The position numbers and the translations under genes were made by a program. Positions 27,776-62,243 of a stretch of DNA of 64,000 bases are shown here, piece by piece. Source of the stretch: Meghimatium bilineatum (taxonomy: Eukaryota; Mollusca; Gastropoda; Stylommatophora; Philomycidae); the NCBI GenBank assembly GCA_034231615.1, contig CM067312.1, forward strand, positions 8,554,546-8,618,545, given 5' to 3'. Positions within the stretch are counted from its first letter, which is position 1. Each line of letters opens with the position of its first letter. The notes below the pieces were generated by a model that was given only the letters and a program-made list of their open reading frames with translations, was not told the DNA's origin and made no database searches.

Positions 27776-30700
27776 CTTCTTCTTCTTCATCGTTCTTCAG
27801 TCAGATATCAGGTTACAGCGCCAATAGCTTCAGTCAGATATCAGGTTACAGCACCAATAGCTTCAATGAATTGTGTGATTCGCTTCAGGTCATCCATGGA
27901 ACCCCTCAAGTCTGGAAGGAGTGCCGTCTCAGTAGGCCATATTTTCTCCCTCTCTTCTTGGTAGAGTTGACAGGCATGAAGAATGTGTTCTGCAGTCTCT
28001 GGGCTCAGTCCACAGTTGCACAGGTCTGTCTCACCAATCTTCAGCTTTCGGAACATGTGACTTCTCAGTCTGTTGTGACCAGTTCGTAGTCTGAAAATTA
28101 TGGTTTGTTCCTTACGTGACATTTGGTGGTAGGGGTCATTTGGTTCTGCAGTTGGGTGCATTTGCTTCCACTTTTTCTTATATTCTGCTTTTAACATGGT
28201 CGTACTTTCATAGTACGTATTATCATTTTCTATTTGTTCCAGTGATCCCCCTTTCCTTGCCAGGAGATCAGCTTTTTCATTTCCAGGTATGCCACAGTGA
28301 CCTGGGATCCACTGCAGTACTGTTTCTTTGGTGGTACTGCTGAGGTGTAGTTAGCAGGCCGTAAGTTCATTCATGCTCGTGTTCTTTGGATCTTTCAATG
28401 CCTGCAATACTGATTTTGCATCTGTTAGAAATACTACATGTCTGATGTGACTCGGCAAGCAATTCATGAGCATTTTGGCTGCCTCTATTATGGCTTCCAT
28501 TTCTGCTTTGAAATTTGTGGAATGTTTGCCTGTGGGTATGGATTTCTCTATTTCTTTTCCATCTGGTGTTACTATATATATTCCTGATTCTCCATCTAAT
28601 ACTGCCTCTTTCGCTGATCCATCTGTATATACATGTGTCCATATATCCTTTGGGTATACTTTCTGTATGTGATTCTTAGTTGTCTCCTTTAGTACTTGTA
28701 TAGTAGTTTCTGTTTTCGAAATAATGCTTGGTATATTGTCCATAATTCTTGGGAAGTTTTTCCTGTCCCATGTTGGGTATGTGTTAAAGGTGTTTAGTGG
28801 TTTTAGGTTTTGTAGGTCTGTATCTGTGAGTGATTTCTGGAGCTGTTTAGCAGAGTGTAGAAAGCTACCTCTTTTGAGTCGCTATTTTGTAGGTCTGCTT
28901 AGTCTTTGGTTCATTTGATGACTCTCCAAACATTTGAACTTTGCATATTGTGTGAGGATTTTTTCATTTCTTCTTTCTTCCATTGATGGCAAACCTGTGC
29001 ATGTTTCCATTTCTGTGATTGGGGTAGTATTCATACCTCCTGTTATAATTCTGAGATTATGGTTTTGTATCTTTGAGATCTTTTGAGTGTTACTCTTGGC
29101 TGCAGTCCCCCATGCTGACATTCCATATTCCAAAGCTGGTCTTACATAACCTGTATATGCTCTACTTAGAATTTTTCCATTTGCACCCCAATCTGTTCAA
29201 GCCAATTTTTTAAGGAGTGCTGTCCTCATTGTACCTTTTGTTTGGCACTTGTCTATGTGCTGTTTCCATGTAAGACTTGGATCAAAAGTGACTCCAAGGT
29301 ATGTAGGTGTCTCATCTTTTGGCAATGTTTGACCATTTATGGTTAGTAGGATTTTCTGTGGTTTGGTGGACATGCTGAAGATGGTATAGGTAGTTTTTTG
29401 GGCATTGATAGACATGGCCCATTTGTCTGTCCACTTGGCCAAATTGTCCATAGTTTCTTGCAACCTTATTTTTGTTGTGCCAACGCTCTCTTCACTGCCC
29501 CATATCGCCAGATCGTCTGCATACATTGCAGCATTTACTTTACGCGGGAGAATTTGGTCAATGTCATTCATGAATATAAGGAATAGAGTGGGGGATAGAA
29601 CACCTCCCTGTGATACTCCATGCTTAAAGAGTTTCTTTCTGCTATGCTTCATTTCAAGCTTCACTGCTGCTTTTCGGTTGTGCAGGTAGTGTTTTATCCA
29701 GTAATACATGCGCCCTGTCACTTTGTTTTGTTGTAGTTTAAGGAGGAGTCCATCTTTCCATACACAATCAAAGGCTTTTTCCATATCTACCCACACCACT
29801 GATGTCTGCTTTTTTTCCTGCAAAGCATCCTCTACTTCCTGGACAATTAGTGTAATCTGGTCTTCAGTTGATCTACACTTTCTGAAGCCAGCTTGCTGAT
29901 TAAACAGGATTTTATTTTTTTCTAGGAACCACATCATTCTTTTGTTTACCAGGCGCTCCATTAATTTGCAAACACATCTGGTCAGACTTATTGGGCGATA
30001 GCTGTCCACCTTATTTTTTGGGTTGCCTTTCTTGTGGATGGGTATCATTATGGCGGTTTTCCATACCTGTGGCACTAGACCTCTATCCCAACAGTTGTTA
30101 AAATTTTTTATTAATTTCTTTTTTGCTGATGGTCCGATGTGGATTAGCAGTTCATTTGGTATGTCATCAGGGCCAGGTGATTTCCTAAGTTTTAATACTG
30201 CTAGTTCTTCATTTAGTTCATTAATCGTGAATGGAATATTCATGACATCTTGTTTATCTTTGCTGATATCTTTTTCGATATTTCGTAGTTCTTTTCTTAC
30301 GTCTCTTCTCCTATTTTCATCGATTTTGTGGCAGGCAGTACTTTGGTAATGCTGTATAAAGTGATTTGCAGCCTTCTTTCCTGTGAGTACATCTCCACCA
30401 TTCTCTATAGCTACTGGTGCTATTTGTTATCTTCGTTGTTTAGCATTTTTGTTATTTTCCATAGATTTCTTCCCTCTTTGTCGAAGTTTAAATTTTCTGT
30501 TTTTTCATGCCAGCTTTTCCTTGTGTTTGTAATTGTCGTTTTTCTTAGTTTGGCTACAGCAGCTTTTAGTGATATGTTGTTTTCTGTGGATGGGCTTTTT
30601 TCTGCTGTGTCTCTGGCCTTTGACACTTCTTTCTCCAACTCATCGAGTTCGTCAGACCAGTACGGTTTGTAATTTTTCCTAGCACCTCTTGGTATGGTTT

Positions 30701-30960
30701 GCTTGGCTGCTTGAAGAAGTGCAGAAGCCAGGAGTTGTGCAGTTTTGTTCACGTTTTTAATCCTTGGATTTAAGGTTTTTGTAAATTTGTCTGTCAGGTC
30801 AGCAAACTTACTCCAGTTTGCTTTCTTTAAGTTCCATCTGGGTGTGGTTGTAGGGCCAGCAGGGGTATGGTTAATGTCAATGGTGAGTTTGATGGGGCGA
30901 TGGGATTGAAGTGTTAGTGTTTCATCCACCCACCCTTTCCAAGAAAATGACTTACAATCT
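27776..30960 (-). pseudogene. Nearly complete LINE: endonuclease end, RT, RNase H, GAA tail
   Basis: Minus order: an endonuclease-type end (SHRPIKLTIDIN, 30910) and linker to 30420; a frameshift; then one frame from 30243 to 27841. This holds RT (SPGPDDIPNELL, YRPISLTRCVCKLMERLVNK, QAGFRKCRSTEDQ, VWVDMEKAFDCVWKDG, GVSQGGVLSPTLF, MYADDLAIW), the thumb, RNase H (VYTDGSAKEAV, FLTDAKSVLQAL, IPGHCGIPGNEKAD) and a C-terminal RLRTGHNRL..CNCGLSPETAEHIL knuckle. The frame has only three stops (29197-29199, 28882-28884, 28351-28353). The end is GAACGATGAAGAAGAAG at 27776-27795. A 40-bp duplication (27797-27872) precedes it. I/Jockey-like group; the 5' end is missing. Confidence 0.92.
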
Positions 30961-31200
30961 TAGCGACTTTGTGATGTCACGTAACTTAGTTCCAAGGATT
31001 CTACGTAGTCGCAGTATGAAAGCTGTCACATCTCCAAGTGGATATAGGTTGATCATGTCTCACTGCCAATGAGGCGGGTGCTTAAAGACACACGCCTGGT
31101 AAACCATGAGTTTAGGTTTTATAGTTAATTTTCTGTTCCTCCAGATCATTTTTGCTAGTATGTTCATTGATGTTGATGTCTTGTCAATCCAATTGCTTAT
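30961..31200 (-). pseudogene. LINE RT C-terminal remnant
   Basis: Minus reading DKTSTSMNILAKMIWRNRK and LRRILGTKLRDITKS, typical of the post-thumb region of another non-LTR family. It abuts the larger LINE. Confidence 0.6.
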
Positions 31201-31543
31201 TTATTGACTCAAGGATAATGTTTTTAATGAGAATCCTAGATGTAAAGTGGTCAACTACAACAATCTCATTAAGATTAATGACAATTTGGGGACGTTTGAT
31301 TACTGCCTACGTTATAATTGGTCTTTTTTTTGCAGGTTGTTAGTAATGTCATGTCAGCATTATAAATACCACAGTTTTATGTTAAAGAAAATGGATAATA
31401 TTAAAACATAATTTAAGAAATTAAAATGTCATTACATATAACACTAATTAATTCGTTTAATTATAAATTGTGAAAATTAGTGTTGTGATTTCATGTTTTA
31501 TATAAATAACATCCCATAATTCAGAAAGTGAGCATTTCCGCAT

Positions 31544-31552
31544 CCTTTTTCT
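31544..31552 (+). promoter_or_regulatory. RPS3A: Candidate TOP element of RPS3A
   Basis: CCTTTTTCT, 16 nt before the start codon, is the pyrimidine run expected at the cap site of ribosomal-protein mRNAs. The transcription start is inferred. Confidence 0.55.
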
Positions 31553-31567
31553 GTACAGTCGGCAATC

Positions 31568-43900
<12,333 letters not shown>

Positions 43901-43907
43901 AAGTTTT

Positions 43908-44878: not shown

Positions 44879-44985
44879 ATTCTTCTTTCGTTCACTTGAA
44901 ACGTCTATATCTGTAATTCTGTCTCCTGAATAAAACTCGCTGTCTTGTGTAGTTCATAGTGTTGTTTCCTCTGGCCAATATGTCT
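44879..44985 (-). mobile_element. SINE family J copy
   Basis: Minus copy from CATTCTTCTTTCGTTCACTT to TCCTCTGGCCAATATG. Confidence 0.75.
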
Positions 44986-45099
44986 GTGCCAGTGTTTCAT
45001 ACTCGAATCACTTGAAAAAAATGTTTGGCACCCTGTGCTGCCTGCCTTCTGAAGTGTAGAATTATAACTTGTTCTGATCTGTTCATAATGTGATAGTCA

Positions 45100-45790
45100 T
45101 CTTGTATTGGTGGATGCTATCTTTCATCTGTTTTATTCTAATGGTAGGTGATTGGTACATCTGGTTGATCTTCGGCAGCACCTTCCTTAACCAGTTTGTC
45201 TGCTTTTTCATTTCCTGGTATTCCACAGTGAGAGGGTATCCACTGGTTACCCTATACTGGCAAGGCAGTTCATTAAGTAGTTTTTGTAAGTGTTAATTTT
45301 TCCACACTGGAGAGCTTGAAGCACTGACCTTGCATCTGTTAGGAATACCACAAGCTGGTCAGAGTTTTTCAATAGCTATCCTAATTGTCTGACTATCTGC
45401 ATCATAACTATTGCAGAATTTTCCTGTTTGTGATCGGATCATATCTAGGCGTTTGTGGATATTCTATATATACACATGCACCTCCATTCCTCACTGCATT
45501 CTGTGCTGATCCATCTCTATACTCTGACCTATATGTCGTGTGGATATTCATCATCCAGGAAACATAGTGACCGTCATTTGCTGCAATAGATTCTGTTCGT
45601 CCTCGCTTAGTATTTCTTCCACGTGGGTCCCTGTTACAGACTTTAAGGGGCTGTCAACTTCAGGTAGGTCTGCAAGTTGTCTACGGAGTCATTTAGCTTT
45701 GTGGATAAAACTGCTGTTATCCCATTATATTGAGGCTCTCTTAGGCAGCTTTGTAACATGTCATATTAAAAATTATAGACCCGTCTTAGC
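45100..45790 (-). pseudogene. RNase H remnant of a GAA-tailed LINE
   Basis: Minus frames read YRDGSAQNAVRNGG, VVFLTDARSVLQALQCGK and IPSHCGIPGNEKADKLVKEG, as in the LINEs at 28 and 61 kb. Many stops and frameshifts. 45830-46195 holds nothing recognised. Confidence 0.75.
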
Positions 45791-46199: not shown

Positions 46200-46350
46200 T
46201 TCTGATAAAGATGGATGTGCCGCAAATAAAACTGGCACACAACACATTTCAGTCTTCTGGACTACATCCTGATGGATTTCTAGTAGGACTATTGTTCTGC
46301 TACAGGAGAGATCTAGGAAGGGTTTGAGAATGAACGCTGAAGATGATTTA
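46200..46350 (+). mobile_element. SINE family A copy
   Basis: Full-length, with tail decayed to GAACGCTGAAGATGATT. Confidence 0.8.
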
Positions 46351-46490: not shown

Positions 46491-46627
46491 AAGTCGAAGA
46501 TGGATGTGTCATTGGCACAGATAATACTGTGACAACGCATTTCCATTCTCTGGACTAAGCCTGCTGGAAATCTAGCAGGACAATTAGGAGAGATCCAGTG
46601 GGAGTTTGAGAATTAACGATCAAGAAG
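46491..46627 (+). mobile_element. SINE family A copy, internally shortened
   Basis: GTCGAAGATGGATGTGTCA to GAGAATTAACGATCAAGAAG. Confidence 0.72.
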
Positions 46628-46691
46628 TATATGATTTATGATAGGCTGACCCACTTTGCTATCACAGAGAAGGGTCCTAGAAGTACCATTT

Positions 46692-46878
46692 CTTTGCTTC
46701 TGCACTCATTCTCACACTCCTGGCAATTATCAGGATGTAGTCTGGTGAATGAAAAACACTCATGGTTTACAGCTTGGCTTCAATATCCCACCTTTCGGTC
46801 AGACTCCACCATGCCTTCTGGGTCACTCTGTGATAAGGAAAGCAAATCCCACCCTAGATATCCCCTGCATGCATGACA
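46692..46878 (-). mobile_element. SINE family B copy, truncated
   Basis: Minus copy: CTCCTGGCAATTATCAGGAT, ACCTTTCGGTCAGACTCCAC, CCCCTGCATGCATGAC. Confidence 0.65.
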
Positions 46879-47178
46879 GATTAGCTAGTCTTTGGGTATC
46901 CCAGCATTTCCTAGACAACAAACTACATACATTATTGTGTATTTTTGTTAACTTGTGGGATTCAGCTGGTCTCTTGAATCAAGTCTTATTCTTGATAGGC
47001 GACTTCCCCAAATTTTTATGCCTGGCTGTCTTCTGTCTGTGATATCTTGAGCTCATGTTTTTCATTGTGAACGTTATGCACTGAAAATATTTCAAGTGGA
47101 CAAATTGTAAATATTTTGCCAAAATTTCGGTGATCATTCTAAAATGTCACTAAGTTACAATTTATTGTTAGTCCAGAG

Positions 47179-47301
47179 ATCATCACCACTGCACACAGGT
47201 GAGATTATCACCACTGCACACAGGAGTGATAATCACCACTGCACACAGGTGAGATAATCATCACTGCACACGAGTGATAATCACCACTGCACACAGGTGC
47301 G
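47179..47301 (+). repeat. Minisatellite M4, about 26-bp unit
   Basis: ATCACCACTGCACACAGG with GTGAGATA or AGTGATA linkers, five copies. Confidence 0.9.
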
Positions 47302-47419
47302 ATTAGAGAAATAGGTGCTTTGATATTTCCTTATTGAACACTTCCAAATTATATGTATTGTTTATACTGTATATAACGAATTTCTGTTATTACATACAAA
47401 CTTATTATAATGTGAGCAA

Positions 47420-47645
47420 AAATTGTCTGAGCGAAGAGTCACCACGCACACGCGTGCCTGGTGACAGATAGGGAGGCTGTCACATGCTAGGGTAGCCCAC
47501 CCGAATTGTCAAGGCATGCCGAAATCTGATGTGTTAGGCTTACAAGGCGCATAGCGGTGGCACAATGTAATCACGCTCCCGGCAGAAATCGCATGGATAT
47601 CCATGCTGGTTACAATGGAGCGAACGCAAAACAAAACAAACATAA
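47420..47645 (+). mobile_element. Element C 3' fragment, AAAAC-tailed
   Basis: TGTCACATGCTAGGGTAGCC, CCGAAATCTGATGTGTTAGG, GGAGCGAACGCAAAACAAAA. 47650-48040 holds nothing recognised. Confidence 0.75.
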
Positions 47646-48039
47646 TAGGGTTTGACTAAAATCCTTAGAAACCAGTTGGTCAAGTGTTACTGTTACTTGT
47701 CTTTTTTAAAATTTTACTTTTGCATTCTCAAACACAGATTAGCAGCAGTATGAATAAATAACAGGGAATGTAAAAACTAGAAGGACAAAGATGAAACAAA
47801 ACAGAATCTCTCAGAGGAGATCATAAAAAATTGGGATTTTAATCAAAAAGGTGGGTGTTATGATATTCACAAAAAAATTCTTCAAATTTCTCATGAAAAA
47901 AGGGAATTTCATGTGAAGACTGCCTGAAGAACCAACCACAAAAATATAATCCCTCCCCCTTTCCAGAAGAGTAATTAACAGCTCTGACTAGGAATATGAG
48001 ATGTTGACATAATCATTAGACGAGATGTCAAAAGGCAAA

Positions 48040-48580
48040 TGCAGTAACATACCATCACCACTACTTCTTCACCCCAAGATCGAGATGGAAGTTAAGAGAC
48101 AAATGATCTATAGTATATTTCTACCAACACTGTGTTACCAGTGCCAAACCTGGTCTATCTCATCTTCACATTACAGAAAGATAGTGACGTGAGATGAAAT
48201 GCTTGAGGAAAGGTGCCGGGGTCACCAGGCTTGATAAATTGTGAAATGAATACATCAGGGAAAGAATAGGTATAATATCTTGTACAGATTACATAGAGAG
48301 ATAACAGATCAAGTGGTTTGGCCACATTATGAGAATGCATCACGAAAAGTTGCCTGCACACGCATATAACCAAATGAGATCAGGGTACAAAGCCAGAGGA
48401 AGACCACAGAAAAGATGGATAGCAAACATCAGGGACATCCTGTACAGACATGGTCATATCACAGCCGAGGCCACACATCTGGCTTTAGAACGCAAGCTCG
48501 AGCTCCAATCACCCCTACGCTTAACGGCAAGAGTGGATCACAAACCACCTTGGGAAAGAAAATAGACTAGGAAGATTCTC
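48040..48580 (+). pseudogene. LINE RT C-terminus (KARGRPQKRW type)
   Basis: Frames read IFLPTLCYQCQTWSISSS and QIKWFGHIMRMHHEKLP, then ARGRPQKRWIANIRDILYRH. The part after 48300 is open; the part before is broken. Confidence 0.75.
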
Positions 48581-48636
48581 AAATCTGGTTGTTCGTCATC
48601 TACACCAAGTAGCATAGTAGTTGTGGCATCAGTCAA

Positions 48637-48788
48637 GCGCTTACTCTTTCATCTAGAAACTCATTACTTGTAAAGCACTTATCTTTCATCTAGAAAATTC
48701 ATTACTTGTAAGGCACTTTACTCTTTCATCTAGAAAATTCATTACTTGTAAAGCACTTACTCTTTCATCTAGAAAATTCATTACTTGT
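48637..48788 (-). repeat. Minisatellite M5 made of the SLX4 exon f end plus splice donor
   Basis: A unit of about 39 bp, CAAGTAATGAATTTTCTAGA plus TGAAAGAGTAAGTGCTTTA on the minus strand, occurs four times. The first copy is the true end of the exon. Later copies read GTAAAGTGCC, ATAAGTGC and GTAAGCGC at the donor position. Confidence 0.9.
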
Positions 48789-48850
48789 GCCATGTTGACT
48801 TTGATGGATGCATCTGATATTCTTTTCTTCAGCACATCTAACTCTAGTGG
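48761..48850 (-). CDS. SLX4: SLX4 exon f (SLX1-binding domain, second half)
   Basis: 30 codons, acceptor CTTATTTCAG, provisional donor GTAAGT. Joins exon e as TYE-PLELDVLKKRI and ends MNFLDER. If the donor is not used, translation runs into the M5 repeats and stops after about 22 more codons. Confidence 0.86.
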
Positions 48851-51800
48851 CTGAAATAAGTTCAAACATAATCAGTTTAAAAAAAAAATAAAATAATTTA
48901 CTGAACTAAAAAACATGACCTAAAATTGTTTCGTCGCCGTTCACAACCTAAAATAGTTCACAACCTGGAAAGTGACAGTTGCAGCAATGTGTACATCGAC
49001 ACACACACACACAGGCAGTGGGTTAAAGGGCATGTGCCCAAGTACCACTAAATTAGGAACAAAACAACCATGTTTCACTGGAAGGAAAATTTAGTGGTAG
49101 TTTTAACGTTCGTTATCAGACTTCTGTCAGTAAGAATGGAATATCTTGTGTCTCTACTCTATGATGCCAGTAAGAATGGAATGTTGTGTCTCAGTGATGT
49201 TTGTTTCAATCATCAGAAATTACAATCAATAGAGCTCTTGTATTCTTTTGCGCAAGTGGGAAAGCTTTTGCAGAGCTTTCTTTTTCATCTTCTGTGTTGA
49301 TTCTAACAATTCTTGCAGATTAGCAGGACGTGACGCAGTCCTGAGAATGGAATGCTTTGTGGAATGTTTTACAGCTGTGTTGCAATATCTACAGCTTTTG
49401 GTTTGATGCCTCTAGAGTTTTATTTCATACCTAAAAGAAAACCCAGAATGGTACGTTCTTTGAGATGAAGTCTCTTACTCTAAATTTAAATAAATTCTAG
49501 GAGTTTTGTAACTTCTCAACACGCTGAGTTTGTTCTCACCATTCCTGTAAGATGCTGAGTTTGTTCTCACCATTCCTGTAAGATGCTGAGTTTGTTCTCA
49601 CCATTCCTGTAAGATGCTGAGTTTGTTCTCACCATTCCTGTAAGATGCTGAGTTTGTTCTCACCATTCCTGTAAGATGCTGAGTTTGTTCTCACCATTCC
49701 TGTAAGATGCTGAGTTTGAGCCATGAGTTTCAGCTTTTTTACCAAGGATCCTCTCCTTTTAGAGGTGTCCATTGCAAAAAAGCCCTGGGTCATGGTCACT
49801 GGGATATGTAGGGCAGCCAGCTATGTATTCCTGGTCTCCAATAGAGGTAACATGTCTGATTCAGAGCTCTACCATTGTTACATCTGGCACAAAGTTGCAT
49901 TTCACCACACCCCAAACACGTAATTGTACAGATGAATGGACGCAAGGGAAGTGTAATTGTACAGATGAATGGATGCAAGGGAAGTGTAATTGTACAGATG
50001 AATGGATGCAATGGAAGTGTAATTGTACAGATGAATGGATGCAAGGGAAGTGTAATTGTACAGATGAAATGACATGAGGTTTCGGCACAATAAAAGCATC
50101 ACAATATTGGCATGTCATCTACTGAGTCGCCTGTGTATTGCCAGGCCTAAAAGGGAGCAAAGAATAGAAAGTTTTTCCATTCATGCATGTCATAAGAGGC
50201 AACTAAGGAGGTTATGGAGTGAAGTTAGCTGTCCCATCCCATACAGGCTCAAAGTAATCTAGAAGCCATGATGAAGTCGGATGTGTCAGGCCGAATCGCA
50301 TGGATTCTTTTCTTCTGTTAAATGCCTCTTTTTTTAATCGTCTTTTGACAATAGGGAAATATGGTAACCCTATGATCATCATCAAATGCCGTCTCCGCAA
50401 CGAAGGTTGGCTGCACCGTATCTCCAACATCTCTTGTCTTGGTGGTGCACTCTGCTAGACTGTAACCTGTAACCCTATGATACACACCTCATATGTCAAT
50501 ATACTCTCATGGATATCCTTGTTGTTCCTCACAAACTCAACAAGTTTATCCGTTACTGCTTGAGTACTCGACTGTGTCTGTTGAACCAAAAAAAAGAAAG
50601 ATTTTTTATTAAACTTGTTACTTCAACGTTGAATTTACATCACATAATAATAGACAGACAAGAGAAAAAGTGCAAGTAAAATGTACAGAATATCTGCTCC
50701 ATGGGTAGAGCGCATGATGATGATGAAATAATCCCTGTAGCTGTGAGCACTTAGCTCTTAACAGCCCATAGCCGTTCTGACAAAAGCATAAGGTCATCCT
50801 CAGATGAGTCAACTGTCAATACTGCATTTTTTCCCATTAAGGAGTTGCAGGGAGGAGATTGAATAGCTCAGATGAGTAACCAAGGTTAAATTGAAATGCA
50901 TAAGGTTTGCCGTCACAAAGGCATGGTTGTGTTTGGGGGTTTATGGATGCATGTTTAGTCCCAGAAAGGAAATTAATCCAATACGTCATGATCTTCATAC
51001 GTCCTGCCAGGGGCACAGTACAATCTCCTGGGCCGACTAGTTGATTATTCTTCCGTCAGATCTGCTGACCCATTTTCAGTGATGATACACCTAGCATTCT
51101 CCGCCATTTAGAAGTCTGCCACAAAAGGACAAAGGTATAATGTTCACTTGTGTGAATGTCAACATCATTCATGAAGGAAAAACTAAGAAATGCTGGAAGT
51201 GGATTTGTGTGTGTGTTTTTGAAGATGACATGTTATCTAGTTGTGTTGCATGGTTGCTGGTTCACCTTTCATCCTGCTATCTCCGTCTTCAGTACCAGTG
51301 CTTTCTTAGGCAGGACTGTGGTCCTTGATGTCAGGGATTGTGTGACCAATCTCAGTTTTAAGCCTCTGTTGACTGGACTAAGCGAAATCTTCACTTGAAG
51401 GAGTTACTGGAGATTGATACATTAAGAAGACAAACGCAAAGCAAATAGAAGTGAACATAATCAGCGCAGGAAATCAAGAGAATAACTGCAATAGAGACTA
51501 CATGGCTGTTGAATTTGATACATTCCTTTCTCTGGACAACATCCTGATAATTGGCAGGAGTTTGATAACAAATACAGAAAATAAAACCACCAACACAAAA
51601 AAGAAGAAAACAATATTTTAAAAGTCAGAAACCACAGATATAGATGAATGTTGTAAGCACTATTCAAATAGAGATGATAAAACTGTGATCAATAGGAAAG
51701 GATTATGCCAAATGTTAACAGCAAGTCATAGCACTTCATAAATGTTGTCAAATTGTTGATTAAGTTAGTTAAATACAAGTTCAGAACCAACTGAGACTTG

Positions 51801-54800
51801 GGAAGACAGTATCTGTTGCTAACTTTGATGATGAAGAGTTGATGGTTCAACACAAATTGTGTTTCTGATTGACAAGTCTTTGGATGTCAAGAGTATTGTA
51901 TGCTTTTAAGGAAATAGAAAATAACATTCTATACATTACTCGTCTTTTTCATCTACATTCATTCTCAAACTCCCGCTAGTTCTTTCTTGTAGCAGGAAAA
52001 TGGTCTTAGATTTCCAGCAAGATGTAATCCAGAGAATGGAAATGCCTGTGTCACTTTTTTTTCGCCAATAGCCCAACACACCAGTCTTTGGTGGGAGAAC
52101 ACTATTTTTGATGCAACCCCCCCCCCCCTCCTTCTAGAAACATCATCATCCTATTAATGGGCCTGAAAGGGGAGCAAAGAATAACAACACTGCGACCTGC
52201 CATGCATGTTATAAGAGGTGACTATGATTTTGTATATGGCTGTCCCATTCCATAAATGGTCAAAGTGACCCAAAAGCCCCACTTGTCATGATGTGTCAAG
52301 CTGAAAATTGTAGATAACGCAGTCAGGCTGTAAACTATGCTACAACACATTCTGCCTTCTGGAGTACATTCTGCAGGAATTTTAGAACGAATGTAGAAAA
52401 ATATAAAGAAATGCCAATGTTCAGATCTAGGAAAAAAATGTTCTCAAACCACAAAATGGTAAATTAGGCCCGGTATCAGACACTAATTCATGAATTTGAC
52501 ACAAGGCCTAAAAAAAAGGTTTCACATCAATAAATAAACCCATAAATGAATAAAAAAAATAAACCCATAAATGAATACATAAATTTATCTATCAATTAAC
52601 CTAAATAAATACTTTGTGTTGCCGAGGCCCTAAAGGGGAGAAAGTAATAGCAACAATGTTTATCTTCCACACATGTCATAAGAAGTGGCTAAAGATGTTA
52701 TGGGGTGGAGTTGGTTGTCCCACCTGTAAATTGGATGTGCTGTCTAAAGGCGGAGGAGATATTACAGCAAAGCTGTAAACATGACGCAACACATTTCGTT
52801 CTTTTGACTACATCCTGCTAATCTGCAGGAAGTTGAGAATGAACGCAGAAGAAGATGAACTTAACATTTCTATAGTCTACATACCAAATGAGATGGTGCC
52901 ACATCATCTTCTGGCCAGCCCTGCAAGATACTCTCCTCAGGAAGATCAGGCCCATCGCTGTGCATTGAGATATTTATTTTAATTATAACTATATAAAAAA
53001 GTTTACATGGCAACACTGAAGATAAAACAAAAATTAAGATATAAATAGTAAATTTCTTGTTTAGACAAAGATGATCTGACTATACTGCATATTAAAATAT
53101 ATCTATTTAAAGAAATAAAAAATCAAACAAATTCAGTATTTTGGACATATTAGAAGACATGACATTTTGTTGAAGATCTTACTTGAGGGTAGAGTCGATC
53201 AACAGTTAGGCAGAGATACAAGTGCGATAGTAACATCATGAGATGGACAGGTTACAGTCTAGCAGAGTGCACCACCCAAACAAGAGACGGGATGTTGGAG
53301 GTTTGTTGCAGTCAACCTTCGTTGCGGAGAGAACTTGATGATGAGATGTAATAAACTAGAAATTTTATAAACTTTTGGAAGAAAGTTTTTCTGATAATTC
53401 TAGCATTAATTTATCTCATGCAGGAAGTGAGTTATAAAGTGTTAATTTGCATTGTGATACTAGTACTGATTCTGAGGATATTGGCCTAGATTCAGATATC
53501 TGCAGCATATGTTTCAAATTCGTGGTCAGACACGTGTGATGCAGTAAAGTCCCCATTTTTGTTTTCAGACAATAATAGTGTAATAATTCAAAACATTTTT
53601 CATGCAGACGTTTAAAGAATCTTTGATTCTTTATCAAATCATACTATAAATAACCCAAATATCTGAGGATATCCGACAAAATGGAAGTGCCGCAGTAACC
53701 AGACAAATAGAGGTAAATACAAATAAGGTTACTGAAGAAAACTGTCAATATAAAATAATGAAATATAGAAAATAACAATAAAATAAAGAACAAATACAAT
53801 TGTCAACGTGTCGGTCCAATTGGGTCCTTTATCAAGATGTTTATATTCGTTATGGTTTTGTATTCTTAATTGTTTTTGTTGTCTTGACAAAGGTCCCAAT
53901 TGGACCAACATGTTGACAATTGTATTTGTTCTTTGTTTTATTGTTATTTTATATTGACAGTTTTGTACAGTCACCTTCCTACCTTATTTGTATTTACCTC
54001 AAATGATACTACTATACAACATATTTGTGATGGGACAAATCATCATCAAGTGCTGTCTCTATATAGCAGCATATTGAGTCTACTTTAAGCCATATTAGGT
54101 CAAGGTAAGATGACTACACAAAGAAGGTCCAGCTGTGTTAACACACAAAAGTTGAAATGACACTTAACAACGTGTCCTATTACAAAATCTCAATTGCTAG
54201 ATGTTTGTTTGTTTGTTTTGCGTTCGCTCCATTGTAACCATCACGGATATCCTTGCGATTTCCGCCGGGAGCGTGATTACGTTGTGCCACCGATATGCGC
54301 CTTGTAGGCCTAGCACATCTGATTTCGGCATGCCTTGACAATTCGGGTGGGCTACCCTAGCCTGTGACAGCCTTCCTATCTGTCGCCAGACAGTGAATGT
54401 GTACTGACTCTGTGCCGAGATGGTTTGTCCTTCACGTCTGTCCTGCACGAGGCGTTCCGCAGCCAGTGAACTTGCATCGTGTAATTAGACGTATTGTGCC
54501 CGTGCTCATCGGGTACTAAACCTTTTCTCGTCCTCAAGCCTGGTTCTGGTTTAGGAAGAACTTGACAGAAGAGTTGGGCTCGGGCTCGTTCGTCTTCTTA
54601 GACGAAGTGTTGATCACCAACTTCGTGAGCCCCTCGTCCAGGTCTGAATTTGTACACATATTTAGGAACGTTAGATGTGTAGTGAAGATGTTCGATGTGT
54701 AGTGAGGATGTTCAATGTGTAGTGAGGATGCTCTTTCGACTAACAGATAGACACATGTAAGTCTATTCTCTTCTGGTCTAAGCACATGACACAAATAGTG

Positions 54801-57800
54801 CCATCTTCTAATAATAGTTGACATATATTCTTGTTTAGATATGTCTCTTCTTGATTCATTTGTGCAAAAGTTTTTCCAATCTATGTTCACGATTTTAATA
54901 GTCTTTTTTCTATGGATTAAGTGGATTTCCAGCTTTCACATCCATAGGTTAGTAAAGGGATTACGAAGGAGTTTGATCTTAATATGTGTCTAAGTTTTGT
55001 GTTCCATATACCAACTAGTTTATTGAAGGCACTTGCTGCAACTGCTATGCATGTAAATAATTCTTTTGTCCCATCTCTTTGATATTTTACTTCCCAGGTA
55101 GATAAAGTTTTCAACTCTGTAAATAGTTCTTCTTCTTCTTCTTTCGTTCACTTGAAACATGTCTATATCTGTAATTCTGTCTCCTTAATAAAACTCACTG
55201 TCTTTTGTAGTTCATACAGTGTCCCATAGAGTTTTGATTCCAGTGTTGTTTCCTCTGGCCAATGTAAATAGTTGATTGTTTAATTTTCAACTCCTGTCGT
55301 ATTAGTAAAATCCATGAATTTTGTTCTCTTTATATTAACCTGTAAGTCTATTTGTTCTGCGATACTATGTAGTTTAGTTATTTTGTCTTGAGCGTGTGCA
55401 AATGTTGTGCTCATGTAGAGGATGATATCATGTGAAAAGTCAAGATTTACTAATAACTTGTTGTTGACCCAGGTAATCCCCATGACATTTTGCGAATGTT
55501 TACGCATGACCCAGTCAATTGCTACTTCAAGTAGCATTGGTGACATGACACAGCACTGTTTTACTCCAGATCTAACTGTAATCAATTCTGATTAGCTTGT
55601 ATTCAGTTCCAACACAGAGCGAAGCTTCCAAAAGCACCCAGAAATTAAGAGTTTCATTAGTTATAATTTCTGGAGAGTGAAACAAACTAGAGACATGATT
55701 TCATGATTGCTAGTCAATATAGCACTCAATGATACTGTACCTGAAACTAGAATCCTGTGAACCAGATATGTCCTCATGGCTCTCACCAACTCTCTCTGAC
55801 AGTACATCAGAACCAAAAACCTTTCCTGGAACTACCTTCATGCGGGTGTCTAAAGTCAAAGAAAGTGATTCCATATGTTGATGTGAGTTAGGTAATATAC
55901 GGTCAACAGTTGCCAGCTGTAAATGTTTGTTTATAGCTTGAGGCTGTGTGTTAGAACTGGCTTTCTTTTTTATTACTTTTGGTTTATTGTTTCTGTGGGT
56001 CACTTCTGATGCCTTAATGGGCAGATGCGACAACTTAGCCCTAGCACTAAGTTCTGAAGGCTGAGAGTTGTTACGTTTGTATTTTGCTGGAGTTTCAGCA
56101 TAGTCGCTGTCTGTTTCATCTGAAAAGAGAATGAGTAACTTAGGTTAGAATGTAAGGATCGTAGTTAGTCGTCAGATATTCACAATGACGTTCACTTCTA
56201 CTGACATCACATTTATATATATATGGACCAAAAACATGGAATTTTGTCCTTGTTCTTTGTTTTATTGTTAGTTATTTATTTTTAACATTGATAGGATTTT
56301 ATAGTAACCTTTATAATTTATTTTGTATTTACCACTTTTTCATTTGGTTACTGCAGCACTCTCCATTTTGTCAGATATCCTCTGATATCTTGGTTATTTA
56401 TATAACGTCACATTTCAAACCCGGCTCCTTTATTCTGTTTATAGAAAAGGAATCATCACCCTCATTACCCATCGAGAAGATCACCGTCATTAATTTCATT
56501 TGACCATATAGTTTGTTGTAAGGAGTTCAATATGTTGACTTGGTCCTTTGCCCTATCACGTGATACAGTGGCAGAATGTGCCAATAGATATCTGCTCTCT
56601 CATTGCCTTGAATAATTGAATGACCAGGCACAAAAATGTAATTCCTTCTAACTTTAACCTCCCCAGAGTCTCAAGCAACTTTTCACAATTATAACCAGCT
56701 TGTAGCTTTCTGATCATGCTCACTTAGAATGCAGGAATGAATTTTACCCTGTTCTGCCATACTCTTCTTCTTCTTCAGTGTTCATTCTCAAACTCCCACT
56801 TGATCTCTCTCTTGTAGAAGGATAATGGTCCTAATAGATTTCCAGTAGGATGTAGTCCAGAGAATGCAAATGTGTTGTGTCACGGTTTTATTTGCGGCAA
56901 TGGCCTGACACATTTGTCTTAAGCAGGAATGTTGCCATCCAATTTAGGGACTTGGTCACTGTCACAATCTCCATAGCCTGTAGCCACAGTGAAAACTATC
57001 CTCTCCTCTCTACGAGTCTTTCATACACACTGTGCAGTGAAACACTAAGCACATATCAAATAACATAACCATCAAGGATTTTGATGTCCCAAGACATGCC
57101 AAAATTGGATGTGCTAGACTTACATGGTGCAAATTGAACAGTGGCATAACACACTTCACGCTCCCTGGCTGACATCACATGAAATTTGTGATGATTAAAT
57201 GAGAGCAGACCTGAGAAGTCCTGAGCTAATATATCACAATATAACATGTCTAGTCTGAGAAAGAGTGAGCTAATATATCACAATATAACATGCTAAGTCT
57301 ATCACCATTGATATTTTTTCTTTAAAGCATTAAATCTGAAGTAATGTCCTCATACATTCATGATATTTGTCATACATGATAGTTGTCATACATGATACTG
57401 TAAACATGATAGTTGTCATACATGATACTGTAAACATGATAGTTGCCATACATGATACTGTAAACATACATTTATTGTGGACAGCACTACAGTCAGGTCT
57501 ACAGACAAGACTTACATTGATGTGTTTCCTGATACTTACATTGATGTGTTTCCTGATACACATGTTTTCTGATACTTATATTGATGTATTTGCTGGTACT
57601 TACATTGATGTGTTTCCTGATACTTACATTGATGTGTTTCCTGATACTTACATTGATGTGTTTCCTGATACACATGTTTTCTGATACTTATATTGATGTA
57701 TTTGCTGGTACTTACATTGATGTGTTTCCTGATACTTACATTGATGTGTTTCCTGATACACATGTTTTCTGATACTTATATTGATGTATTTGCTGGTACT

Positions 57801-59581
57801 TACATTGATGTGTTTGCTGATACACACGTTTCAACAATTCCCTCATTCTTTTCTTGCCAAGGGGCCGGACTCCAATTTTGGATACAGCTTTCTGTAATAA
57901 GATTTATTTAATTATGTCACAGCTCATCGCACATAGATTATAACTGTTATTTTATAAAGATGATTCTAGAGTACAATGGAAGTATTTGTGTACTTTCCTG
58001 TTAGGCAGACATACAATTTATGTTTGCTTGTTACTACAAAATAATAGTTTTCTTCTTCTTCTTCTGCGTTCGTTCTCAAACTCCTGCAGATTAGCAGGAT
58101 GTAGTCCGGAGAACGGAATGCGTTGTGTCATGGTTTACAGCATTGCTGCGCCTTTCGGCCTGACACATCCGACTTCAGCATGGCTTTGTGTCACTGACTC
58201 TATATGGGATGGGACAGCCAACTCCATCCCATAACCTCCTTAGTCGCCTTTTACGACATGCGTGGAAGGTAAACAGTGTTGCTATTCTTTTCTCCCCTTT
58301 CGGGCCCCGGCAACAGACGGGCGAAATAATAGTTTTTATATATATTTTTTGCACATAGTGAACGTCAATATGATATATCCATTGTGAATTCAGATGAAAG
58401 AAGAAGAGGAAGACCAAGAAGATGATGGACCAGCGATCACAAAGAATGTATAAATATGTCTCAGGCCAATGCAGGCCTACTTGCCCAGGCTGTTTTTGGT
58501 GGTAGTCATCATATGAAGATCTACTGTACAGACAATAGAATCTAGTGAAAGTACAACGGACGTACACATCAACAACACTTTTGGTTGCAATAAAACACTG
58601 TTTGCCCATAGAATTGATTTCTGCTCTTTGTTTTTATTTATATTTCTAGATGACCCACTCTGTTTTACACTATATTTTATTTCCAGAGAAGACTTTGTTG
58701 TTACTTTATTCACATCTGATGATGAAATGGGTTGATTTCCTCCCTGCAGTCCAGGCATGGGTCTTCACCACAGCAAATATCATGGGGTGTGGTAATCAAC
58801 TTTTTACCATTTTTTCCCCCCTAATATTTTGGATCCTTCAAAGCAAGAGTGAATCATAAGAGGTAAATAATAATAGCCATCCCGGACAATGATGACAACA
58901 GTTTCAGACTCGTGATGTTGCATCGCACGTGGATGTGGGAGGAGATGACTAAAATGTTATAGAATCAATCCCTTGCCACATTTGGAACATCTGTGTGTTT
59001 ATTGTTTTGTCCTTTCAGACAATACAGTTTCTCTGTTCCTATGAAATTTGATTATTTTTAGTATTGCAGGCAGTTTTGTTGTTAGTGTTGCGTCACATCT
59101 GGCAGTTCTAAGTGACAAAATTTCCAGGAGGTGACATCGTTGGTGAAGCTCTTTAGAGAAACTTTGAGAGTCCTTGAAGCACTTCCTCTGTCCACTTATC
59201 CGTCATTTTCCCTTTAGGAGTTTACGATACTTCAACTGTTTTGGGATAATTTGTCAGGGACACACATGTTTGGCCCATCTCAGTTGGACCCACTTCGGCA
59301 TGTGTATGAATGCTTGGGATAATGTCTTTAGTGAGTACTAGTGGTTTGGTAACTTACCAGGTACTTTTAGTGAGTACTAGTGGTGTGATAAATCATCAAT
59401 ATTCACATAAATCTCAACAGCTGTCCCAACATTCACATAACAATTTTGTTACCTTTAGATCTGGTGTTGCCATTTCATCATAAGGTGCCATTGGAGTAAA
59501 TGGTGACAGTTCCTTCCAAACCTTTTTCACATTATTTCCTTCACTTGAAGTTTTCTGATTTGGAGTTGTCATACTAAATCT
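48761..59581 (-). CDS. SLX4: SLX4 structure-specific endonuclease scaffold, C-terminal part (six exons)
   Basis: Seen: exons 59453-59581, 57804-57891, 55741-56119, 52885-52957, 50488-50577 and 48761-48850, all AG/GT with consistent phases. The reading runs FTPMAPYDEMATPDLK, KIGVRPLGKKRMRELLKRVY, QQTHQ then ETDSDY, a poorly conserved linker, ILQGWPEDDVAPS, KLVEFVRNNKDIHESILTYE and PLELDVLKKRISDASIKVNM to MNFLDER. It follows human SLX4 (TPMPRYSIMETPVLKKELD, FGVRPLPKRQM, YTHQTLDSDSE, LRQYIRSKPTLYQQVLLYQP, FELAELQ, LLDFLDA): a SAP-like segment then the SLX1-binding domain. Known: SLX4 scaffolds SLX1, and in vertebrates XPF and MUS81, for junction resolution and crosslink repair. Upstream exons lie beyond 59.6 kb and the last codons after FLDE(R) were not found. 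It is convergent with RPS3A. Confidence 0.9.
49288..49420 (-). mobile_element. SINE family B fragment
   Basis: Minus 3' half: TTCTTGCAGATTAGCAGGAC, TGTTTTACAGCTGTGTTGCA. Confidence 0.65.
49523..49717 (+). repeat. Minisatellite M6, 31-bp unit
   Basis: Six near-perfect copies of GCTGAGTTTGTTCTCACC plus ATTCCTGTAAGAT in the SLX4 e-f intron. On the gene strand each unit contains TTACAG and GGTGAGA, so it resembles an acceptor and a donor. Confidence 0.95.
49720..49900 (+). repeat. Dispersed repeat I, second copy
   Basis: Matches 14515-14690: GTTTCAGCTTTTTTAC, CATGGTCACTGGGATATG, GGGCAGCCAGCTATG. Confidence 0.55.
49916..50071 (+). repeat. Minisatellite M7, about 32-bp unit
   Basis: TGTAATTGTACAGATGAATG plus GATGCAAGGGAAG, five copies, in the SLX4 e-f intron. 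Confidence 0.94.
50129..50300 (+). mobile_element. SINE family B, 3'-shortened
   Basis: Head and core up to GATGTGTCAGGCCGAAT. Confidence 0.78.
50377..50468 (-). mobile_element. LINE 3' fragment with (GAT)n tail, 13-bp target duplication
   Basis: 92 bp in minus orientation with GTAACCCTATGAT at 50364-50376 and 50469-50481. Same family as 16703-16847, further truncated. Confidence 0.85.
50488..50577 (-). CDS. SLX4: SLX4 exon e (SLX1-binding domain, first half)
   Basis: 30 codons, acceptor GGTTCAACAG, donor GTGTGT. Encodes LVEFVRNNKDIHESILTYE. A LINE fragment begins 20 bp beyond the exon end. Confidence 0.88.
50600..51505. other. SLX4 d-e intron, no recognised feature
   Basis: No exon with good borders or repeat family recognised. 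A B-type 3' end fragment begins at about 51508 (ACAACATCCTGATAATTGGC). Confidence 0.45.
51943..52099 (-). mobile_element. SINE family A copy
   Basis: Minus copy: CATTCATTCTCAAACTCCCG to CACCAGTCTTTGGTGGG. Confidence 0.8.
52153..52405 (+). mobile_element. SINE family B copy
   Basis: Head GGGGAGCAAAGAATAACAAC to a decayed tail GAACGAATGTAGAAAAA. Confidence 0.78.
52614..52856 (+). mobile_element. SINE family B copy next to SLX4 exon d
   Basis: Head TTGCCGAGGCCCTAAAGGGG to tail GAACGCAGAAGAAGATGAA. It ends 29 bp from the exon d border. Confidence 0.82.
52885..52957 (-). CDS. SLX4: SLX4 exon d
   Basis: 73 nt, acceptor CAATGCACAG, donor GTATGT. Encodes DGPDLPEESILQGWPEDDVA; phases fit exons c and e. 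Confidence 0.83.
53120..53345 (+). pseudogene. LINE C-terminus with (GAT)n tail
   Basis: One frame reads IQYFGHIRRHDILLKILLEG and RVDQQLGRQRYKCDSNIMRW, then TGYSLAE. It ends AACTTGATGATGAG. This longer copy shows that the short (GAT)n fragments are LINE ends. Confidence 0.75.
53711..53999. repeat. Foldback structure, arms of about 120 bp
   Basis: Arms 53711-53837 and 53882-53999 are near-perfect reverse complements around a 44-bp loop. They share AGGTAAATACAAATAAGG, ACAAATACAATTGTCAAC and GGTCCAATTGGG. Sequence just outside the left arm (53640-53710) also matches 56330-56425 inverted, so the unit is a dispersed repeat present in opposed copies. Confidence 0.85.
54208..54650 (-). mobile_element. 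Element C 3' portion, AAAAC-tailed
   Basis: Minus copy beginning TTTGTTTGTTTTGCGTTCGC, close to the one at 4450-5480 for its first 170 bp. Confidence 0.78.
54660..55620 (-). pseudogene. LINE reverse transcriptase remnant interrupted by a SINE J
   Basis: Minus order: VRSGVKQCCVMSPMLLEVAI, then LDFSHDIILYMST (a decayed DFADDI catalytic box), SIAEQIDLQVNIKRTKFM, the SINE J insert, then KTLSTWEVKYQRDGTKEL, PLLTYGCESWKS and IIRRWHYLCHVLR. A different family from the RNase H LINEs. Confidence 0.8.
55129..55262 (-). mobile_element. SINE family J inserted in a LINE, 11-bp target duplication
   Basis: 134 bp with TGTAAATAGTT at 55118-55128 and 55263-55273, and a tail TCTTCTTCTTCTTTCG. LINE RT frame lies on both sides. 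Confidence 0.88.
55741..56119 (-). CDS. SLX4: SLX4 exon c
   Basis: 379 nt, acceptor CTCTTTTCAG, donor GTACAG. A low-conservation, Ser/Lys-rich linker after ETDSDYAETPAKYKR. Confidence 0.85.
56255..56425 (+). repeat. Single copy of the foldback-arm repeat
   Basis: TTGTTCTTTGTTTTATTG, TTTGTATTTACC, GGTTACTGCAGCAC and TCAGATATCCTCTGATATCT match the 53640-53999 structure. 56430-56760 holds nothing else recognised. Confidence 0.6.
56763..56927 (-). mobile_element. SINE family A copy
   Basis: CTTCTTCTTCTTCAGTGTTC to ACACATTTGTCTTAAGCAG. Confidence 0.83.
57094..57215 (+). mobile_element. Element C 3' fragment, diverged
   Basis: GACATGCCAAAATTGGATGT, GGCATAACACACTTCACGCT, AATGAGAGCAG. Confidence 0.5.
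57371..57467 (+). repeat. Short tandem array, 30-bp unit
   Basis: CATACATGATACTGTAAACA plus TGATAGTTGT, about three copies. Confidence 0.9.
57512..57830 (-). repeat. Minisatellite M8 made of the SLX4 exon b end plus splice donor
   Basis: Gene-strand unit AAACACATCAATGTAAGTAT plus CAGG (24 bp) starts as the true exon end (CAAACACATCAAT, then GTAAGTACC) and repeats about twelve times with variants (ATAAGTATC, AAACATGTGTATC). The variants are ordered into a longer period of 88-112 bp. Confidence 0.92.
57804..57891 (-). CDS. SLX4: SLX4 exon b (SAP-like)
   Basis: Acceptor CTTATTACAG; encodes KIGVRPLGKKRMRELLKRVY and QQTHQ plus one base. The donor chosen is the first GTAAGT, because it gives phase 1 and joins exon c as Q-Y-ETDSD. 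A chain of donor-like repeats follows directly. Confidence 0.87.
58052..58323 (-). mobile_element. SINE family B, full-length, 13-bp target duplication
   Basis: 272 bp, nearest to consensus here, from CTTCTTCTTCTTCTGCGTTC to CAACAGACGGGCG. AAATAATAGTTTT at 58039-58051 and 58324-58336. Probably a recent insertion in the SLX4 a-b intron. Confidence 0.9.
58390..58530 (+). pseudogene. LINE C-terminal remnant
   Basis: RRGRPRR, a stop, then ECINMSQANAGLLAQAVFGG, like the ends at 24.1 and 61.5 kb. 58620-59450 shows nothing else recognised. Confidence 0.6.
59453..59581 (-). CDS. SLX4: SLX4 exon a
   Basis: 43 codons, acceptor CTCCATCCAG, donor GTAACA. Ends with the TPMAPYDEMATPDLK block. Letters a-f are local labels, since upstream exons are unseen. 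Confidence 0.88.
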
Positions 59582-60283
59582 CTGGATGGAGAAAACACAG
59601 AAAACATTGTTCAACTGAAGCTCTGACAAACAACAAGATGGTTGCTTGGTTGCACTGACATAATTTATAAGACTTTTGCACTTTAAATTAAATATATTTA
59701 AAAAAACGACTTATTTTCCTGGTAGCCTGTTATTTCTCACTGAAACATCTTAAAATTGACATAGGCTCTTGGGAGAGTCTCGCTCAGGATAGAACAGCAC
59801 GGCATCACAGCCTTAGAACTGGAGAATTAGCAGCGGAAAAGACCAGGCAAGATACTGCAAGACAGAAGCGGGACAATGTGCTCGCATTGGACTTGTTAGT
59901 CATTTAAAAACACACTATTATTATTTTTTATTACTTATTGTTATTATTATTATGGTTGACCTTTTGGTCATCGTAAATTATGATGGACGAACAACAACAT
60001 TTCGTGGCAATTGAAAAATTTGTTACAAAACCTAATTTACAAGAATTTATAATTTTTTTTAAAAGATAACTTTCATATGGTTATTTTATTCTGGTAGTGA
60101 CTATAGAAAGATCCAAAGAATAACATGTACAGAAAGATGCACCAAAGCAAATTTTCACAAAGACCTGAACATAGAAGAAGAATGGCTCCTGAGAACTATA
60201 AAAAAAAATGCAAGCTTATTTCAAATTATTACGCAACATATTTTTAAAATATATTAAAAAAACACAATGATTTAGAAAGAATA

Positions 60284-61436
60284 ATCATGGAAGAATATGG
60301 ATCAACAGCATGGACTTCAGCAGCCAACTCCCATCTACAAGCCATGAACAAAGTACAAAATCAAGCACTTCGCCGTATCACAGGTGCCAATGAAGACCTC
60401 TCCCATAAATGAAATGGAAAAAATTACAGGTATCACCCCCTTACCATACAGGTGAGACACTAAGACCATGGTACATGCAGAAAAGTACAAGAGCATGCCA
60501 GCACATCCAATGAGGACCAGACACAGTGACCTACCCAAATCTCACTATCAGAACCACCATAAACAACTACCACACTATGACAGAACTGAATAATCTTCAA
60601 AAGAAAACAATAGTATGCAACATGATTGAAGATATGTACCCCAGAGAAGCATGGATACAAGTATATACCAATGGATCAGCAACCAGAGCAGTGAAGTATC
60701 TGGCGTGTACATAAAATATCCAGAAAAAGAAAATGAATCCACATGTTCACCAACTGGAATATTCTGCTCCAACTACTCTGCAGAAGTACAGGCATTAAAC
60801 ATTGCTGCAGAAATAATTAAAAACACAATGAGCCAATGCCAGCAGGTGGTATTTCTTACTGATGCTATGTCTGTTCTACAAGCCCTTGACAGTGATAAGC
60901 TGCCAGACCTGAAGAAAGTCATGCGAGAAGTGAGCATCCAAAGAAGGGTAGTACTACAGTGTATACCATCCCACTGTGGCATACCAGGAAACGAAGAGGC
61001 AGACAGATTGACAAAGGATGGAGGAGCAACACAGGAACAAAAAGACCAAGAAATCACCTACCAAGAAAAGAAGACCCTCATCAAAGCCATCAGGAAAGTC
61101 GACCACCCAAAAGACAATTACTACTATCTCGACAGAGCAGAGCAGGTTGTTATCTTCCGCCTCAGAACAGGACACAACAGATTAAACAGCCACTTAAATA
61201 GGCTAAGATTGGTTCCATCACCACTGTGCCCTTGTGGGCAGGCAGCACAGACCACTGAACATATCCTGCAAGACTGCAATACACTAAACCAGTTATGGGA
61301 AGAACACTGGCCCACAGAGATGGATATCCAGAGAAAGATTATGGGAGCACTGAGGAGCTTTCAAATACAGCAGCATTTATTAAGAAAACAGGACTTGCTG
61401 TGTAGACATGTCAAACTGCTAACGAGAAGAAGAAGA
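60284..61436 (+). pseudogene. GAA-tailed LINE, 3' part with RNase H
   Basis: Starts in the RT thumb (IMEEYGSTAWTSAANSH, KVQNQALRRITGANE). The RNase H frame from 60651 is open: YQWISNQSSEVSGVYIKYP (first motif frameshifted from VYTNGSA), VVFLTDAMSVLQALDS, IPSHCGIPGNEEADRL, then RLRTGHNRLNSHL and CPCGQAAQTTEHIL. It ends AACGAGAAGAAGAAG at 61422-61436. The 44-bp insertion at 11637 is a near-identical copy of its last bases. Confidence 0.88.
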
Positions 61437-62205: not shown

Positions 62206-62243
62206 ACTTTCATTTTATGTCATGCAACATTTCAGCAAAGTTC

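Follow-up and report, generated by a model that had tools for sequence, protein, structure and literature searches.

A GAACG-(GAA)n 3' terminus common to RNase-H LINEs and abundant short elements, some of them probably LINE-derived, in the gastropod Meghimatium bilineatum

A 64-kb stretch of the Meghimatium bilineatum genome (GenBank assembly GCA_034231615.1, contig CM067312.1, positions 8,554,546 to 8,618,545; hereafter the window) carries copies of three short repeated families, A, B and C, together with long interspersed nuclear elements (LINEs) that encode reverse transcriptase (RT) and RNase H. The short families and at least four LINE lineages (LINE1, LINE2, LINE-J and LINE-M) end in a common terminus of about 17 nucleotides (nt). 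We believe that B, and A through B, are short internally deleted LINE derivatives (SIDEs), and that A, B, C and a further short form, K, are copied by way of this LINE-group tail. We give this reading a probability of roughly 0.66. Coordinates are window positions, and L-numbers denote loci fetched from the scanned genome (1.61 Gb, 32 contigs), of which the window is a piece. The haemocyanin beta-sandwich domain PF14830, a marker of molluscs, matched 50 times in this genome, clustered on two contigs, and had no match in any of 14 control genomes.

The sequence GAACGNNGAAGAAGAAG, with up to two mismatches, occurred 20 times in the window, compared with a mean of 0.06 and a maximum of 1 in 100 dinucleotide shuffles. 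The exact tail pattern was found 54,696 times genome-wide (27,205 + 27,491), and the same pattern reversed, an equally simple control, 112 times (61 + 51). The exact 23-nt tail of the A/B/C type, TTTGAGARYGAACGNNGAAGAAG, occurred 49,325 times, and its control was not found. The results showed that the tail reported by the first-pass annotation for the short families and the RNase H LINEs is real. The expectation that identity would be confined to the 3' end was also borne out: the clear identity of the short families to each of the LINEs is limited to about 17 nt at that end. Of 100 exact matches listed, the first 48, consecutive and all on contig C1, were assigned by their upstream sequence. 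This census gave A 24, B 10, C 5, LINE-M 4, LINE1 3 and LINE-J 1, with one unassigned; the script had labelled six as "other", five of which were recognised as C by their shared printed body. The hit without a family (L052, contig C1 1676877-1677153) shows by eye little beyond the tail, is flanked by two copies of GAATTGAATAT, and is a possible extreme 5' truncation.

The LINEs share one layout: a stop codon, 12-14 nt, and then GAACG-N0-3-(GAA)n. Their 3' untranslated regions (UTRs) are about 30 nt long, and GAACG-N0-3-(GAA)n alone is common to the lineages. RT and RNase H domains were detected in LINE1 by Pfam RVT_1 and RNase_H and in LINE2 by Pfam RNase_H; the RT/RNase H character of LINE-J and LINE-M was recognised by tblastn with LINE1 and LINE2. 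By these domains, the tail-bearing LINEs are RNase-H LINEs (I superfamily). The RTs of LINE1 and LINE-J are 56% identical over 232 amino acids (aa). A single LINE 3' end with a single machinery behind it, as proposed at first, does not agree with a tail shared by at least four lineages.

The window copy of LINE1 has a stop codon, 12 nt, and then GAACGATGAAGAAGAAG at 27779-27795(-), as the first-pass annotation had described for the LINE end at 27.8 kb. A 33-nt duplication lies directly before this tail (Tandem Repeats Finder, 27795-27865). When LINE1 3' ends of 10 copies from 10 contigs were compared, GAACGATGAAG was exact in 8 and had one substitution in 2, and the GAA units varied from 2 to 6 among the 8 exact copies. 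LINE1 is young. Protein identity was 98-100% across 150 scored copies, which ranked highest among 73,372 first-look candidates and are therefore a sample biased towards young copies; 11 of them kept an open frame of 1297-1300 aa. The LINE2 copy at 61.4 kb is out of frame near its end, and its stop was inferred from LINE-J and L018. The tail claimed for this end is present (TAACGAGAAGAAGAAG), but the full GAACG is not, as this copy has lost the G; the other LINE2 end, at 11638-11682, reads GAACGAGAAGAAGAAG. That second end lies inside the tail of an A copy, and GAATACTAAAGAA (13 nt) stands on both sides of it. This repeat indicates a simple insertion, and a LINE2/A template-jump chimera was rejected.

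Three further observations concern the LINEs. The idea that all LINEs have a conserved hairpin ahead of the tail was rejected (z of -2.8 for LINE-M, -3.1 for B, and -0.8 to +0.5 for the other five). Comparison of the LINE RNase H region with collections of genome contigs and of viral contigs gave one match of 21-22 residues each, which was not used. Near the coding start, LINE1 (L101/L102) and LINE-J (L081-L100) carry TGCCGGGC..CCTCGAA..; the flanks are complementary (GGGCTC with GAGCCC for LINE1, GGGCCC with GGGCCC for LINE-J) and may form a conserved RNA hairpin.

LINE-J shows how a short form arises from a LINE. The annotation had listed "SINE J" as a short interspersed nuclear element (SINE), but it is the 3' end of LINE-J and no separate family. 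L023 contains a single LINE in which RT and RNase H are succeeded by the J sequence (2770-2907); it closes with ...KETELQI-stop and then the tail, with a frameshift before the end. J also adjoins LINE sequence as its end in L019, L014 and L003. For K, a narrow tail pattern gave 5 matches and a body pattern was used instead; this exact 20-mer had 3,637 matches genome-wide and a control of 0. The body was LINE-J 5' UTR-like sequence in the 20 fetched copies. In 2 of the 20 (L093 and L085) the LINE-J 5' UTR was joined directly to the 3' region, which was identical to LINE-J at 97.8% over 139 nt and 93.8% over 161 nt, respectively; in L094, about 15 nt at the edge of the fetched piece resemble LINE-J 3' sequence and are too short to score. 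K shares 41 nt of 3' end with LINE-J. K is an internal-deletion derivative of LINE-J, and its parent is identified. The idea of K as a separate SINE moved by LINE-J was dropped when its body proved to be LINE 5' UTR. The window itself holds a LINE-J copy with an internal deletion at 43.2-43.5 kb (5' UTR match 73.6%, 3' end match 91.4%). At L116 (contig C1 15462042-15462401), the LINE-J 3' end with its GAA tail is followed directly by the last part of B, either by nested insertion or by template jump.

The element A is 157 nt long and B about 275 nt. A sample of twenty 10-kb regions placed at round coordinates (200,000 bases in all, 2,577 of them N) contained 13 pieces of A, 24 of B and 2 of C, with fragments counted. 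Extrapolation gives approximately 105,000 A, 193,000 B and 16,000 C pieces, about 300,000 together and about 3% of the sequence. The five census copies of C end in GAGAGCGAACGC[T/A]GAAGAAG, so the proposed convergence of C on the tail holds for them; the window form quoted for it, GAGCGGAAGAAGA, belongs to a decayed copy. GAGAGC did not vary among five single C copies, unlike the three bases that precede it. The longer body of the C copy at 36612..36806 runs on to about 37281. Outside the tail, A and B have about 100 nt in common (0/400 shuffles as good). The C body resembles B weakly (7/400) and its relationship with A was not shown (52/400). Of the 9 nt before GAACG, 7-8 are the same in the typed consensuses of A, B and C. 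The description of these families as structurally unrelated passengers thus fails for A and B, and for the pre-GAACG segment of all three. A and B also end in a stem, RTTCTC/GAGAAY, that finishes at GAACG. Among copies fitting the script's 5'-arm pattern, 136/138 pairs were formed in 23 A copies and 83/84 in 14 B copies, and one pair covaries between the families (A-U in A, G-C in B).

Part of the body of B is homologous to LINE 5' UTRs. L101 and L102 supplied the 5' UTR of LINE1 (855 nt, 99.2%). L007 holds the 5' UTR of another LINE, followed by what by eye looks like an endonuclease start, MKIPLNIMHWNAEGVRNKK, and the LINE-M 5' UTR came from L107, the only informative one of six places. A profile built from these three and the LINE-J 5' UTR matched B 103-214 with 26.3 bits (E = 8.5e-7; 0/1000 shuffles, best shuffle 5.3). 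In pairwise comparisons of B, 0/400 shuffles were as good for LINE-J, 2/400 for LINE1 and 1/500 for L007. The profile and the pairwise results support B as a probable LINE-derived mini-element, and A through its homology to B. C matched the LINE1 5' UTR (26.5, 0/400), the single matching pair for C and one of 15 pairs tested, and is a possible LINE derivative. Of the two parts of a SIDE, a 5' part from a LINE 5' UTR was found in K and B, and in A only through B; the LINE 3' end was found as the terminus of about 17 nt, or 41 nt for K.

The data indicate that A behaves as a retroposon. Target-site duplications were found at 19/36 A copies against 0/288 mismatched flank pairs (23/45 against 2/225 in an earlier, looser count), and the GAA number varies among the listed copies. 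Two A copies, L110 and L112 (contig C1, 5.51 and 5.96 Mb), have the same flanks on both sides and represent a duplicated segment, not two insertions.

GAACG, 0-3 nt and (GAA)n form the 3' terminus of an RNase-H LINE group in this mollusc. We propose that A, B, C and K, which carry it, are copied by the machinery of these LINEs, by means of target-primed reverse transcription, and that B, and A via B, arose when internal deletion joined a piece of LINE 5' UTR to the 3' tail. Reverse transcription would start on the GAA repeat, which fits the variable GAA number, the target-site duplications, the extreme 5' truncation and the position of the tails at the very 3' end. Since the 3' UTR is so short, little else is left for the RT to recognise. 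GAACG and the repeat are the sole part kept by the four LINE lineages and by all short families seen, from which we infer that they are what the enzyme reads. A bolder version, which we hold only tentatively and consider rather doubtful, is that the tail acts as a public retrotransposition licence, a very short signal for template recognition retained throughout the LINE group: each of at least four LINE enzymes could copy any RNA that gained some 17 nt, and short families could pass from dying LINEs to newly active ones.

Several results weigh against the proposed origin and copying of these elements. The LINE 5' UTR profile had no hit in A or C, and reverse profiles were weak (B-L007 9.5 bits, E 0.069, 0/500 shuffles; B-LINE-J 5.0 bits, E 1.6; A-LINE-J 3.7 bits, E 9.4; C none). 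None of the pairwise comparisons of A with LINE 5' UTRs was clear (10, 51 and 316 of 400 shuffles as good), and no source was identified for the first ~100 nt of B. The LINE-M 5' UTR matched neither B (233/400) nor the LINE1 5' UTR (360/400), so the B-like block is not seen in every LINE. Target-site duplications were not shown for B (3/15 against 4/120). The LINEs are without the stem that adjoins the tail in A and B. No measured copy of A or B was more than 95.7% identical to its consensus, and LINE1 and J are younger, so mobilisation of A and B by present-day LINE1 was not shown. Finally, a LINE ending in the TTTGAGARY tail that A, B and C carry was sought with a pattern requiring a stop codon before TTTGAGARYGAACG. 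The pattern gave 4,475 matches (control 16), of which 20 were chosen and fetched, ten of the commonest form and ten unusual, and none of the 20 was such a LINE. The pattern had caught mutated A or B copies in 18 cases, and these matches were rejected as parent LINEs; L116 was LINE-J beside a piece of B tail, and L120 was unrelated. A LINE family with a longer matching end, which the first-pass annotation had named as the observation that would speak against its proposal, was thus searched for in part and not found among these 20.

The extension TTTGAGARY, common to A, B and C, points to a further LINE lineage, unfound or extinct, as the probable source of their tail. This leads to the strongest alternative, in which the tail comes from a fifth LINE that ended in TTTGAGARYGAACGCWGAAG and is by now rare or extinct, and on which A, B and C depended specifically. 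The 7-8 of 9 nt before GAACG that the three consensuses share are absent from the four known LINEs (1-4/9 against any of them), and the covarying terminal stem of A and B adjoins GAACG; on the other side, neither the 20 fetched candidates nor the 48 census tails included such a LINE. This explanation is compatible with our preferred one, with the partnership private rather than clade-wide. We regard it as a serious contender, somewhat short of an even chance.

It is improbable that A, B and C are true SINEs whose sequence was captured by LINE 5' UTRs, rather than the reverse. No LINE counterpart was found for the first ~100 nt of B or for the heads of A and C, and the failure of the 5' UTR profile to recover A and C fits this direction. 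A classical SINE has a tRNA, 5S or 7SL head with an RNA polymerase III promoter, and ARAGORN and Rfam detected no tRNA, 5S or 7SL match among the copies of A, B and C, in searches that did not scan for promoter boxes as such. Rfam applied to the LINE 5' UTR loci and the A/B/C loci, with E up to 1, gave two weak miRNA matches, both in L022. Against capture, K shows that this LINE group forms derivatives made of 5' UTR and tail, and the block that B has in common with LINE-J, LINE1 and L007 is located upstream of their coding start.

A single stringent LINE, namely the LINE1 of the window, moving several unrelated SINEs through the tail seems slightly less probable still. LINE1 does have near-identical intact copies and the exact tail. 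A copies with its variant GAACGAT were also nearer to the consensus (n = 7, median 92.2%) than those with GAACGCT (n = 23, 89.4%; p = 0.005), in an unplanned comparison in which two of the seven (L110 and L112) share flanks and count as one event. An earlier count gave 4 against 22 copies, with medians of 94.8 and 89.4 (p = 0.015), and its three A copies nearest to the consensus were of the GAACGAT kind. This hints that A may later have been adopted by LINE1. However, a tail found in four LINE lineages does not single out one partner; before GAACG, the A, B and C consensuses agree with LINE1 at only 1-2 of 9 positions; A and B are related to each other; and J is a LINE. That the families merely converged on a GAA microsatellite, without shared ancestry, for which it may be said that (GAA)n is a simple repeat of varying number, is very improbable given the constant GAACG before the repeat, the great excess over the equally simple reversed pattern, and the other LINE group of the window, which ends in TAAC repeats or otherwise.

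The positions of the elements in the window are collected in the table. The window also contains four tRNA-Glu (CTC) genes with equal Rfam scores, at 16979-17050(+), 19660-19731(+), 20701-20772(-) and 22968-23039(+), within about 6 kb and in repeated segments of 82-99% identity. Three SNORA35 matches, at 24755-24860(+), 26103-26185(+) and 26993-27070(-), lie in a repeated segment and all score below the gathering threshold (29 to 36 bits vs 39). A 30-bp tandem repeat of about 26 copies (97% match) occupies 63027-63798, with long open frames on both strands. A palindrome of about 290 bp at 53710-54000, 73% identical to its own reverse complement, is perhaps a miniature inverted-repeat transposable element.

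Table. Window positions of the short elements and of the RNase-H LINEs
Feature	Position	Strand	Remarks
LINE1	27779..30959	-	Pfam RVT_1 2.3e-39, RNase_H 1.3e-7; frames interrupted in this copy
LINE1, second copy, 3' end with same tail	25374..25593	+	92% to 27828-28031; GAACGATGAAGAAGAAG at 25577-25593
LINE2, RNase H frame and 3' end TGTAGACATGTCAAACTGCTAACGAGAAGAAGAAG	60630..61436	+	Pfam RNase_H 1.1e-5
LINE2 end, 45 nt, 5'-truncated, in tail of A copy	11638..11682	+	97.8% to 61392-61436
LINE-J 3' end ("SINE J"), 141 nt, 5'-truncated	55123..55263	-	97.2% to L023 2770-2910
LINE-J 3' part, longer, decayed	44880..45715	-	corresponds to L023 1873-2624 and 2703-2897
LINE-J with internal deletion	43235..43532	+	5' UTR part 43235-43427, 3' end 43432-43532
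A, best copy	17320..17477	-	93.7% to consensus
A, other copies	175-331(-), 541-695(-), 3010-3164(+), 3900-4049(+), 4255-4412(-), 11486-11636(+)		
A, further copies	51944-52094(-), 56767-56920(-), 46218-46346(+), 46495-46627(+), 13994-14076(-)		
B, reference copy	58056..58318	-	
B, other copies	14076-14351(-), 26687-26960(-), 2423-2684(+), 6290-6541(+), 7624-7873(-), 52617-52859(+)		
B, further copies	62745-62995(+), 61966-62191(+), 62241-62486(-)		plus shorter pieces
C, 3' 197-nt unit with tail AAACGCTGAAGAAGAAC	36612..36806	-	90.9% to C consensus
C, decayed copy, end GAGCGGAAGAAGA	34174..34356	+	81% over 34174-34348
RNase-H LINE of other group, ends without the tail (contrast)	8609..10359	+	Pfam RVT_1 3.1e-15, RNase_H 1.9e-6
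RNase-H LINE of other group, second copy, TAAC-repeat end	20986..22548	+	Pfam RNase_H 1.4e-13

The system touches two open questions, namely how short an RNA 3' end can be and still serve a LINE enzyme, and by what means non-autonomous families persist after the loss of their parent LINE. It offers LINE 3' UTRs of about 30 nt that share GAACG and GAA repeats, a young intact LINE1 on which this could be tested, and numerous derivatives. In LINE-J the parent stands beside its internal-deletion derivatives, a direct view of the origin of a family. These families were not described in the literature searched; a study of SINEs in gastropods and bivalves (PMC4758252) lay outside that search, and a prior description there is possible.

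Comparable elements have been reported. Persaeus and Zenon of Lepidoptera are SIDEs, a class described as rare and, in almost all earlier cases, of low copy number (PMC6740152). RIME and NARTc, the partners of ingi and L1Tc, were derived by internal deletion from ingi-clade LINEs (PMC3820030), and Ingi LINEs have been reported from several gastropods (PMC11203168). Like these SIDEs, the elements described here would combine a 5' UTR piece with a LINE 3' end, without a small-RNA head, and be moved by a parent LINE. They differ in that several LINE lineages share one minimal tail, that about 3 x 10^5 pieces are present by extrapolation, and that no exact parent LINE was found for A, B and C in 20 of the 4,475 candidates. 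Table 1 of PMC3747384 lists Bov-A2, MAR4, RTESINE1 and RTE1-N1_LA as SINE-like elements with an RTE LINE 5' end; both ends are LINE-derived there too, but from the RTE clade and not from RNase-H LINEs. The same table lists the Gecko SINE of Aedes with the tails of ten I-type LINEs. As in Gecko, the tail of one short family fits many LINE families of one group, whereas Gecko has a tRNA promoter and none was found in A, B and C. The I element, which ends in TAA repeats (PMC3747384), likewise has a short tandem repeat as its 3' terminus; here the repeats are GAA and follow a fixed GAACG. With SIDEs, RIME and NARTc, Bov-A2 and Gecko described, the kind is already known, and the abundance of these elements and the minimal tail common to a whole LINE group are the interesting parts of the present case.

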